The notes under the pieces were generated by a model. That model was given only the letters and a program-made list of their open reading frames with translations, was not told where the DNA came from and did no database searches. A DNA stretch of 64,000 nt, from NCBI GenBank assembly GCA_947168445.1, contig CAMVLW010000004.1:1-64000 (forward strand), in the 5' to 3' direction. Below are positions 15,292 through 18,469 of the stretch, one piece after another (position 1 is the stretch's first letter; each line of letters starts with the position of its first letter). The stretch is from an uncultured Clostridia bacterium (GTDB lineage: Bacteria > Bacillota > Clostridia > Oscillospirales > Acutalibacteraceae). The position numbers were made by a program, and so were the translations under genes.

Positions 15292-16299
15292 ATGATTATT
15301 GTTTTAAAGCCAACAACCACACCCGAACAGCTTTTGAGCTTCACCGAAAAGCTCAAAACCGACTATGACGTAAAAATCAACCGCTGGGACGGCGTGCACT
15401 CCACGGTGCTCGGACTCATCGGCGACACCACGCAGGTGGACATTGAGTACATTGAGGCGCAGGACATTGTTGAGAGCGTCAAGCGCGTGCAGGAGCCTTA
15501 CAAAAAGGCAAACCGCAAGTTCCACCCGGAGAACACGACCATCAAAATCAACGACAGCGTGACGATTGGCGACGGCAGCCTGCACATTATGGCGGGTCCG
15601 TGCTCGGTGGAGAGTGAGGAGCAGATTGTCGGCATCGCCAAGAGCGTGCAGCAATCGGGCGCAACCCTTTTGCGCGGCGGCGCGTTTAAGCCCCGCACCT
15701 CTCCCTATGCGTTCCAGGGCTTGAAATCCGAGGGACTTGACCTGCTGAAAACCGCCCGCAAGGAAACCGGGCTGCCGATTGTCACCGAAATCATGCGCGT
15801 GTCGCATATTGACATGTTTGAGAACGTCGATATTATTCAGGTCGGCGCGAGAAACATGCAGAATTTTGAACTTCTGAAGGAACTCGGCAAAACCAACAAG
15901 CCGATTTTGCTCAAGCGCGGACTTTCGGCGACGATTGAGGAATGGCTGATGAGCGCCGAGTACATCATGGCGGGCGGCAATGACAAGGTTATGCTCTGCG
16001 AGCGCGGCATCCGCACCTATGAAACCTTCACCCGCAACACACTGGACATCTCCGCGATTCCGGTGATTAAAAAGCTTTCCCACCTGCCGGTCATTGTCGA
16101 CCCGAGCCACGCGGCAGGCAAAAGCTGGCTGGTGGAGCCGCTGGCAATGGCGGCGGTCGCGGCAGGCGCCGACGGACTGATTATCGAGGTACACAACGAC
16201 CCGCCGCACGCGCTTTCGGACGGCGCGCAGTCGCTGACCCCCAAGCAATTTGACGGCGTGGCGAAAAAATTATTTGCGTTAAAGAAGGCATTAGACTGA
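15292..16299 (+). CDS. aroF: 3-deoxy-7-phosphoheptulonate synthase (AroF/AroG type with N-terminal regulatory domain)
   Basis: [52 protein letters not shown]. Confidence 0.94.
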
Positions 16300-17129
16300 T
16301 GAACATTGCAATTGTCGGGCTGGGCATTATCGGCGGCAGCTATTGCAAGGCGCTGAAAGCCCACACCCCGCATTACGTTATCGGCATTAACCGCACCCCG
16401 GAGGTAGCGGAACAAGCGCTTGCACAGGGCGCGATTGATGAAATCGGCACGCCCGAAGCGCTGGGCAAGGCAGACGTGATTTTTCTCTGCATGTACCCGC
16501 AGGCGTGCGCGGATTTTTTAAAGGAAAACGGACAATATATCCGCAAGGACGCGATTGTCACCGACGCCGCGGGCATTAAGCGCGCGCTTTGTCCGCAGCT
16601 AAAGGAAATCGCGGACGGCTTCGGCTTTACCTATGTCGGCAGCCACCCGATGGCAGGCAAGGAGAAAAACGGCTTTTCGGCAAGCGACGAAAACCTGTTT
16701 ATGGGCGCGAGTTTTATCATCACGCCCTGCGGCGCGCCGCACACGGCGGTGAACGCGCTCTCCGGGCTGGCGCTTGAAATCGGCTTCGGCACCATTAAAA
16801 TCACCACGCCCGAAGAACATGACCGCATGATTGCGTTCACCTCTCAATTACCGCACATTTTAGCCTGTGCCTATGTGCTCAGTCCGTGCTGCCCCAAGCA
16901 CAAGGGATTTTCGGCGGGCAGCTACCGCGATGTATCCCGTGTGGCAAACATCAACGCCAAGCTGTGGACAGAACTGTTTTTGGAAAACCAAGAACCGCTT
17001 GTGGCGGAGCTGGAAGTGCTCAACGAGAATTTGACGAATATTTTTCAGGCGGTTAAAAATGAGGATAAAGAAGCGCTGTTTGCTTTATTAGAGCGCGGAC
17101 ATCAGGTGAAGCAAGCCTTAGGAGAATGA
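16299..17129 (+). CDS. tyrA: Prephenate dehydrogenase
   Basis: NIAIVGLGIIGGSYCKALK; GSHPMAGKEKNGF; SQLPHILACAYV. Confidence 0.92.
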   Translation: MNIAIVGLGIIGGSYCKALKAHTPHYVIGINRTPEVAEQALAQGAIDEIGTPEALGKADVIFLCMYPQACADFLKENGQYIRKDAIVTDAAGIKRALCPQLKEIADGFGFTYVGSHPMAGKEKNGFSASDENLFMGASFIITPCGAPHTAVNALSGLALEIGFGTIKITTPEEHDRMIAFTSQLPHILACAYVLSPCCPKHKGFSAGSYRDVSRVANINAKLWTELFLENQEPLVAELEVLNENLTNIFQAVKNEDKEALFALLERGHQVKQALGE

Positions 17130-17130
17130 T

Positions 17131-17395
17131 TTGCAGTGCAAATCAATTCATGTTGCGTCAGCGACAATTCATGTTGCGGCGCAACAATTCATGAAACGAA
17201 GTTTCAATTCATTTTTGGCAGATGTTAGGATAGAAACGGTTTTTCTCCTGACGCTGTCTTTTTGACCGGTTTCCGGCAAACGTTTCCTTTTATACTGACA
17301 TTGCGGGTCAGCGGAAACGTTTCTGCCGGGAATGAATTGACCTTCGGTCATGAATTGGCGTTGCCATGAATTGACCGTTGGTCATGAATTGCGCC
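17131..17395. repeat. Two opposing arrays of mini-hairpins with ATTCA/TGAAT spacers around a central stem-loop
   Basis: Left stems TTTGC/GCAAA, TGTTGC/GCGACA, TGTTGC/GCAACA, TGAAAC/GTTTCA; right stems TGACC/GGTCA, TGGC/GCCA, TGACC/GGTCA, TGCGCC/GGCGCA; spacers ATTCA on the left and TGAAT on the right. Confidence 0.85.
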
Positions 17396-17419
17396 GTTGG
17401 CGCATTGAGGAGGAAGGAT

Positions 17420-18469
17420 ATGAAAACAGTACACGTCGACACAGGCAAGCCCTACGACATTCTAATTGAGCGCGGCATACTCGACCGCTGCGGCGAATAT
17501 GTGAAAAACCTCACAAGCGCCGAAAAGGCACTGGTTGTCACGGATTCAAACGTGGCGCCGCACTATCAGTGGCGGATTCTCAACTCGCTGGAGCGCGAGG
17601 GAATTCAGACAAAGGCGTTCATCTTTTCCGCAGGAGAGGAGAGCAAGCACCTCGGCACCATTGCGGATATTTACAAAACTCTCGCGGACTTTCGCATGAC
17701 CCGCAAGGACATCATTGTCGCGCTGGGCGGCGGCGTTTGCGGCGACATGGCGGGCTTTGCGGCGGCAACCTATCTGCGCGGCATTGACTTTGTGCAGGTG
17801 CCGACCTCACTTTTGGCGCAGGTGGATTCCTCCGTCGGCGGAAAAACCGGCGTTGACTTGCCGCAGGGCAAAAACCTTGTCGGCGCGTTTCACCAGCCTG
17901 CCGCGGTTCTGATTGACCCCGACACCCTCAACACCCTGCCCGACCGCTTTATTGCGGACGGCATGGCGGAGGTCATCAAGTACGGCTGCATTAAGGACGC
18001 GGCGTTTTTTGAAAATCTTGAAAAAGAGGACGCGCTTTCGCACATTGACGAGGTGATTGAAACCTGCGTGTCGATTAAGCGCGACGTGGTGAGCCGCGAC
18101 GAGCGCGAGGCGGGCGAGCGTATGCTGCTCAATTTCGGTCACACGCTCGGTCACGCGATTGAAAAAATCTATCACTTCACAGGCATTACCCACGGCATGG
18201 CGGTGGCAATCGGCATGGTGCTGATTGCGCGCGCAGGCGAAGCGCACGGCGTGACCGCCGCAGGAACCGCCGACCGCATTGTGCGCCTGTGCGAAAAATA
18301 TCAGCTGCCCACCGCCGACCGCGCCGGTTTTTCCGAAATGGCGCAGGCGGCGCAGGGCGACAAAAAGACAGCGGGCAGCCGCATTAATCTGGTGCTGCTC
18401 AAAACCATCGGCGAGAGTTTTATTTTGCAGCTCCCGCTTGAAGAATTGGAAGCGTTTATTTCGGTTTGA
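17420..18469 (+). CDS. aroB: 3-dehydroquinate synthase
   Basis: VALGGGVCGDMAGFAAATYLRGIDFVQVPTSLLAQVDSSVGGKTGV; LNFGHTLGHAIE. Confidence 0.95.
   Translation: MKTVHVDTGKPYDILIERGILDRCGEYVKNLTSAEKALVVTDSNVAPHYQWRILNSLEREGIQTKAFIFSAGEESKHLGTIADIYKTLADFRMTRKDIIVALGGGVCGDMAGFAAATYLRGIDFVQVPTSLLAQVDSSVGGKTGVDLPQGKNLVGAFHQPAAVLIDPDTLNTLPDRFIADGMAEVIKYGCIKDAAFFENLEKEDALSHIDEVIETCVSIKRDVVSRDEREAGERMLLNFGHTLGHAIEKIYHFTGITHGMAVAIGMVLIARAGEAHGVTAAGTADRIVRLCEKYQLPTADRAGFSEMAQAAQGDKKTAGSRINLVLLKTIGESFILQLPLEELEAFISV

Follow-up and report, generated by a model that had tools for sequence, protein, structure and literature searches.

Opposed mini-hairpin arrays between tyrA and aroB of an uncultured Clostridia bacterium: a probable gene-less derivative of IVP elements

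The 64,000-nucleotide stretch of DNA analysed here (the window) covers positions 1 to 64,000 of contig CAMVLW010000004.1 from an uncultured Clostridia bacterium (assembly GCA_947168445.1). Between its tyrA and aroB genes lies an element built of two opposed arrays of mini-hairpins. It is probably a gene-less, non-autonomous derivative, similar to a miniature inverted-repeat transposable element (MITE), of elements that carry a gene for a 23S rRNA intervening-sequence protein (IVP), and was probably mobilised via binding of the IVP to its hairpin-plus-spacer units. Elements of this build are dispersed in multiple copies, orthologous sites are empty in related genomes and the inner ends are common to gene-carrying and gene-less copies. 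An IVP gene is located inside arrays with the same spacer, and the IVP tree agrees with the spacer word, hereafter called the foot.

The element, its copies and its empty sites

In the window element, a gene-less core lies between four hairpins with ATTCA spacers on the left and four with TGAAT spacers on the right. It was read directly and re-detected by script. Its parts, to which no strand is assigned, and the adjoining genes are:

17127..17404, no strand: whole element
17127..17145, no strand: outer left hairpin, 8-bp stem TGATTTGC/GCAAATCA
17146..17150, no strand: spacer ATTCA
17151..17166, no strand: left hairpin 2, TGTTGC-GTCA-GCGACA, with one T-G mismatch
17172..17186, no strand: left hairpin 3, TGTTGC-GGC-GCAACA
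17192..17206, no strand: left hairpin 4, TGAAAC-GAA-GTTTCA, followed by ATTCA at 17207-17211
17212..17332, no strand: core without a gene
17333..17337, no strand: spacer TGAAT, start of the right array
17338..17350, no strand: right hairpin 5, TGACC-TTC-GGTCA
17356..17366, no strand: right hairpin 6, TGGC-GTT-GCCA
17372..17384, no strand: right hairpin 7, TGACC-GTT-GGTCA
17390..17404, no strand: outer right hairpin 8, TGCGCC-GTT-GGCGCA, adjoining the aroB ribosome-binding site
16299..17129, + strand: tyrA, upstream open reading frame (ORF), named by eye and from the first-pass annotation
17420..18469, + strand: aroB, downstream ORF, named from the first-pass annotation

The repeated unit is TGAAT followed by TG...C-loop-G...CA, and it has opposite orientation in the two arrays, which point away from the core. 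The left stems measure 8 bp in the outermost hairpin and about 6 bp in the other three, the right stems 5, 4, 5 and 6 bp in order. The stems, loops and spacers described in the first-pass annotation were all recovered, including the right-hand spacer TGAAT as the reverse complement of ATTCA and the position of the last hairpin next to the aroB ribosome-binding site. Its placement at 17131-17395 captured the feature with limits that proved slightly too narrow, and the 8-bp outer left hairpin was not listed there. The first three bases of the element are the tyrA stop codon TGA, the insertion lying exactly at this stop, and 15 bases separate the end of the last hairpin from the aroB start codon.

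Including its ATTCAT and ATGAAT bounds, the core measures 131 nt, compared to 70-75 in nine of 13 copies of the same assembly. Given the roughly 60 additional bases and an inverted repeat of its own (AAACGTTTCC/GGAAACGTTT), a second insertion may lie inside it. No PF05635 ORF is present in the window core according to the ORF list of the window.

The arrays exceed chance expectation. The word CATGAATTG occurs seven times in the window versus 0.85 expected, and none of 100 shuffles reached seven. Compared to shuffled sequences, the whole element folds much more strongly, with z values of -10.0 as DNA and -9.4 as RNA.

BLAST and pattern searches located about 15 places with such elements in the assembly from which the window derives (G000, 85% complete). 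These own copies are diverged in sequence and alike in build, having spacers, hairpin layout and inner ends in common, and differ in their number of units. Full copies span approximately 180-280 bases, mostly with 4 + 4 hairpins, while L070, L071 and L077 are truncated; the stem TGATTTGC/GCAAATCA recurs as the outer hairpin in many of them. The copies lie beside various other genes. At every scored end the boundary is A|T: an A precedes the element in 13 of 13 cases and a T follows it in 12 of 12. These bounds fit either a target duplication of AT or none, and the window junction lies one T beyond the A|T model.

A genome-wide unit search, proposed in the first-pass annotation as a check, yielded 21 matches to the fixed-length unit TGAATTGN11CATGAAT in the own assembly and none in the reversed control. 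Singleton CATGAATTG matches on contigs C25, C41, C85 and C90 (L083-L085, L087) lack arrays and were set aside as chance-like. Among 59 genomes, five matched the unit pattern. Real arrays were found in G000, in G013 (94% complete, same genus as G000), in G045 and in G055; the match in G049 (L091) was discarded, as it looks like a chance match. G055 has its arrays directed inwards, towards the core, opposite to the outward orientation in the window. In a larger genome collection, at least three units were present in 27 of 117 loci among the matches listed (26 from Clostridia, one labelled Synergistes), compared to none of 117 for the reversed sequences of these loci, likewise among the matches listed. 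For a viral collection the corresponding number was two of 120 loci among the matches listed, and most pattern matches on viral contigs were dismissed as chance. A separate observation concerns an IMG/VR contig of 5128 bases called viral (L154), which has three TGAAT hairpin elements within 5.1 kb.

Homologues of aroB were found in 56 of the 59 genomes. The array is absent from the tyrA-aroB locus in all 21 relatives' loci scanned, in which the coding ends are often close together. In G006, the junction reads GAATGAGGAGG, and the corresponding window sequence is GAA[element]TTGAGGAGG. A second insertion site, which from the gene name by eye we take to be purH, is filled in G000 and G013, and no hairpin array was found there in G024, G027, G029 and G030. 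The third site presumably lies at the V-ATPase B/D genes, also named by eye. It contains a complete element that includes an IVP gene in G013, a three-hairpin remnant in G000, one hairpin in G006 and no element in four relatives. At an insertion site common to G000 and G013, stem pairing is largely kept. The two sites occupied in both genomes may reflect independent insertion or divergence. The window feature behaves as an inserted element. As an observation apart, the second site of G006 is occupied by a different, opposed short-repeat element (L482/L487; GAGAGTGGAG / CTAAACTC type).

Stem covariation was assessed by scoring segments between two exact spacers without requiring a stem, with shuffling of the inner letters as control. 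Perfect hairpins made up 63 of 72 segments in the own genome (11% after shuffling), 21 of 34 in G013 (3.7%), 34 of 43 in G055 (7%) and 13 of 17 in G045 (3%). For the four genomes together this amounts to 131 of 166, with 3-11% expected. Over 46 distinct 15-nt units, the inner pairs 2/12, 3/11 and 4/10 take three, four and four different Watson-Crick forms, respectively, indicating that both arms change together, as the first-pass annotation had proposed. The closing C-G pair is nearly fixed, and the three positions between TG and this pair vary with their partners. Absence of units elsewhere and loss of covariation in relatives, named in the first-pass annotation as grounds for abandoning its view, were not found: further copies were located in this genome and in other species, and their stems still pair.

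The loops are also biased. On the ATTCA strand, three-base loops prefer a purine first and A last: 20 of 53 in the own genome, and 68 of 186 over all sets, have the form GNA (binomial). GNA mini-hairpins are very stable in single-stranded DNA. The use of this preference as proof of a DNA rather than an RNA hairpin was rejected because GNA loops do not separate the two.

IVP genes inside same-spacer elements

One TGAAT-array copy of G013 (L103/L436) encloses an ORF of 118 amino acids. The encoded protein (L103) matches PF05635 (23S_rRNA_IVP, 1.5e-23), TIGR02436 and PDB entry 2rld (3e-22). The IVP match of G055 (L420, C36:49859-50158) is likewise located between TGAAT arrays. Of 237 loci fetched with the unit pattern, the only IVP frames among the matches listed are L261 and L278, on named contigs of Clostridia metagenome-assembled genomes (MAGs), and both are flanked by TGAAT arrays. 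All eight elements of G055, seven gene-less and one with an IVP, have a core bordered by CATTAAGG...CCT[TA]AATG. Inner ends resembling ATTCATTCCTGC are common to most gene-less own copies and the IVP copy of G013. With ends common to both kinds of copy, the gene-less copies relate to the gene-carrying ones as deletion derivatives would to a full element.

PF05635 was detected in 40 of the 59 relatives with 101 matches, of which 90 were examined and 11 weaker ones left out. From the 90 loci, 85 IVP frames were extracted and 82 passed a motif check. Over these 82 frames, five polar residues are near-fixed (Q 0.99, S 0.99, N 1.0, E 1.0, E 1.0), and R, D, K, K and E are conserved at 0.89-0.94. An AlphaFold2 model of the L278 protein (pLDDT 85) matches the S23 structures 2rld and 2gsc. 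Comparison of this model with Avd (8ube_D, 4dwl_D) gave a TM score of 0.70 by query length and a weak Foldseek E value of about 0.1.

The phylogeny was inferred from a careful tree of 81 IVPs. Being long or uncertain, rows L371, L439 and L441 were excluded, and the hairpin-flagged L385 and L423 are not part of this tree. Foot labels were assigned by the analyst before the tree was built, and similar feet were merged into ten classes. All 29 labelled hairpin-array IVPs fall into one clade of 43 rows (99/99), and all 17 short-repeat IVPs fall outside it. The hairpin versus short-repeat type requires one change on the tree, compared to a minimum of nine in 500 shuffles. The six TGAAT IVPs (from G013, G054, G055, G057 and two MAG contigs) form a single clade (97/94) and come from several bacterial families; the TGAAT foot again requires one change, versus at least three in shuffles. 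For the ten foot classes, ten changes were counted, compared to a minimum of 16, and none of 500 shuffles was as good. When a blind hairpin-excess flag was used instead of the labels, 27 of 41 rows were flagged inside the clade and three of 38 outside. Both single-change results were also obtained with an earlier 91-row tree that included loci of the phylum set. The agreement of clade and foot with the IVP tree supports the conclusion that arrays are inherited together with the IVP as a single unit.

Arrays also surround IVP genes in general. Many other IVP genes throughout the order have opposed mini-hairpin arrays, with spacers such as ATATCAC, ATATCG, CTTCAC/CTTCAT, ATCAT, TTTACC, TTTAGC, ATTTC and others; at further IVP genes, the opposed arrays consist of direct repeats of 7-9 bases instead of hairpins. 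Across the 90 loci, 546 hairpins were counted near IVP genes versus 277 in shuffles. At least two identical spacers were present in 19 of 89 IVP flanks (L388 was excluded, its score having arisen from runs of N), in none of 90 distant flanks and in none of 90 shuffles; among controls, the values were 0 of 29 for aroB flanks and 2 of 12 for Y1-transposase flanks. Inverted flank similarity of at least 36 was obtained for 23 of 83 loci near the IVP gene, 0 of 77 far from it, one of 83 mismatched pairs and 0 of 29 aroB loci. A wider sample of 28 loci from a phylum-wide set and six plasmid loci gave a score of at least 30 in 27 of 34 cases near the IVP gene, 0 of 34 far from it and 4 of 102 mismatched pairs.

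Proposed mobilisation and alternative explanations

For window-type elements we infer IVP binding, synapsis, a copying step and help in trans. An IVP oligomer would recognise a short hairpin of any stem together with a family-specific foot of 5-8 bases, here TGAAT, at both element ends, either in single-stranded DNA, in cruciform DNA or in RNA. Oligomers would bring the two ends together, and copying of the element would take place into intergenic A|T sites. Copies that lack the gene but have the same ends, the window copy included, would be served by the IVP in trans. Stems could drift freely as long as their arms match, because the hairpin shape and the foot, rather than the stem letters, are proposed to be read. 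The loop preference gives each unit a polarity and would therefore point to a reader of single units. Differences between the stems of neighbouring units would guard against cross-pairing. Either selection or the copying of one arm from the other may keep the arms matched.

Several observations weigh against this interpretation. An IVP gene is lacking in the window copy, and the own assembly (85% complete) yielded no IVP of the TGAAT clade; its two IVPs, L362 and L395, were placed outside that clade. The helper would therefore be missing, lost or unassembled. Beyond A|T, no target duplication was clearly recognisable, and the window junction has an extra T. Near-identical own copies were not seen, and hence nothing points to very recent movement. 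IVPs fold as four-helix bundles for which no catalytic site is known, and tree and foot could also agree because they are linked in one element, with no recognition involved. Hairpins at least 700 bp from IVP genes also show an excess, albeit a smaller one (335 versus 258 in shuffles, 90 loci), and the strict identical-spacer test was passed by only the 19 of 89 IVP flanks given above.

We consider it unlikely that the IVP is a passive passenger or regulator and that mobility is provided by a partner such as a reverse transcriptase, as for Avd in a diversity-generating retroelement. The structural model does resemble Avd, and a resemblance between PF05635 and Avd is stated in an excerpt of PMC10053308. 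However, RVT_1 (PF00078) has no match in G000 or G013 (85% and 94% complete), in contrast to such a retroelement, and 21 of the 59 genomes have one; the reverse transcriptase was rejected as a helper on this ground. Palindromes of the repetitive extragenic palindrome (REP), BIME or REPIN type, moved on single-stranded DNA by a resident Y1 (HUH) tyrosine transposase, are a very unlikely explanation. The GNA loop preference, with the stability of such loops, would fit them. REPs, according to the abstract of PMC3733652, likewise consist of a hairpin with a short unpaired foot, in opposed orientation and dispersed between genes, and like the window element they are non-autonomous; their foot is given there as GTAG or CGTC, compared to TGAAT here. 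The window element further differs from REP/RAYT systems in its free stem sequence, its eight hairpins around a core and its link to an IVP, which is the gene found inside the arrays. PF01797 has no match in the own assembly (85% complete), which led us to reject a Y1 transposase as helper; the matches are sub-threshold in G013 and a fragment in G055, and most of the 32 of 59 genomes that do match lack these arrays.

It is quite unlikely that the hairpins are an RNA-level device that shapes the tyrA-aroB transcript, be it through aroB translation, RNase processing or mRNA stability, and were kept for that purpose. The last hairpin adjoining the ribosome-binding site, the strong RNA folding and the pairing kept at the site common to G000 and G013 are in line with such a device. 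Against it stand the absence of the array at tyrA-aroB in 21 of 21 relatives, the copies beside other genes and the lack of any Rfam match at the gathering score in the window. Moreover, since unit polarity reverses between the two arrays, no single transcript has all units in one sense. Local control of aroB, which the first-pass annotation had envisaged, is not supported as the main function in view of these copies, of the missing array in relatives and of the inserted-element behaviour; a regulatory role of the window element at aroB is possible, though not as its general function. Mutation alone, i.e. template switching between the arms of quasi-palindromes with expansion by slippage and no mobile function, is highly improbable. 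Arm correction would yield perfect pairing with free stem sequence, and unit number does differ between copies, but dispersal with identical spacers, clean-edged empty sites, A|T bounds, common inner ends and the IVP gene inside would be left unexplained. Template switching may still act as the arm-matching process within a mobile element.

The preferred interpretation, a gene-less derivative of IVP elements, agrees with the features of MITEs, as the element is short, multi-copy and intergenic, has ends in common with gene-carrying relatives and is matched by empty orthologous sites. Unlike in MITEs, the ends are hairpin arrays instead of one terminal inverted repeat, and the gene-carrying relative has no known transposase.

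Relation to rRNA intervening sequences and other IVP loci

Intervening sequences (IVSs) in rRNA have been known since about 1990, and S23/IVP proteins are without known function according to the excerpted text of PMC4990558. In the same excerpt the IVS is called a selfish element, and mobility with the ORF as the mobility component is said to have been suggested since 1993. The IVS of Coxiella burnetii, which encodes the same protein family and has inverted flanking repeats, is described there as having heptamer repeats before the S23 gene, which fits the presence of arrays at IVP genes in general. In the phylum set, IVP genes within 23S rRNA have opposed repeat arrays. The window element has opposed repeat arrays at both ends, as do IVP (S23) elements. 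In contrast to the classical IVS, it is located between tyrA and aroB and not inside 23S rRNA, is gene-less and ends in arrays of variable-stem mini-hairpins rather than direct short repeats. Within the open-access literature, preprints and subscription papers excluded, no paper was found that connects PF05635 genes with hairpin or repeat arrays in the sense of a mobile element.

More tentatively, and as a possibility rather than a probable conclusion, IVPs might confer mobility on a large class of bacterial transposable elements that has gone unrecognised, comprising intergenic copies, rRNA intervening sequences and insertions into RNase P RNA. Such elements would need no DDE, HUH, serine or tyrosine recombinase and no reverse transcriptase of their own, and would be read through hairpin-plus-foot or short-tandem-repeat arrays. 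One IVP clade would have swapped short repeats for mini-hairpins, with the foot co-evolving with the protein. New stems may originate from snap-back synthesis on the hairpin when the element is copied, which would alter both arms at once. With arrays tied to IVP genes and their foot following the IVP tree, the function of S23/IVP gains a testable form, namely array recognition and mobility; this would also account for a class of intergenic repeats in gut Clostridia and possibly for short tandem repeats near IVP genes elsewhere.

Among the IVP loci of the wider sample, five are located inside 23S rRNA genes and two inside RNase P RNA genes.

At L515 and L517 (G106, G179), an IVP gene with opposed repeats of the GTTGGAAG type lies inside the RNase P RNA gene, and the Rfam match spans 775 bases. 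On plasmids of Nostoc and Anabaena (L528, L529), a four helix bundle (IVP) gene is located between cas2 and cas1 and is flanked by short repeats of the AAAAGTA type. A hairpin array of about 100 bases occurs in three tandem repeats 3' of the G051 IVP gene (L402).
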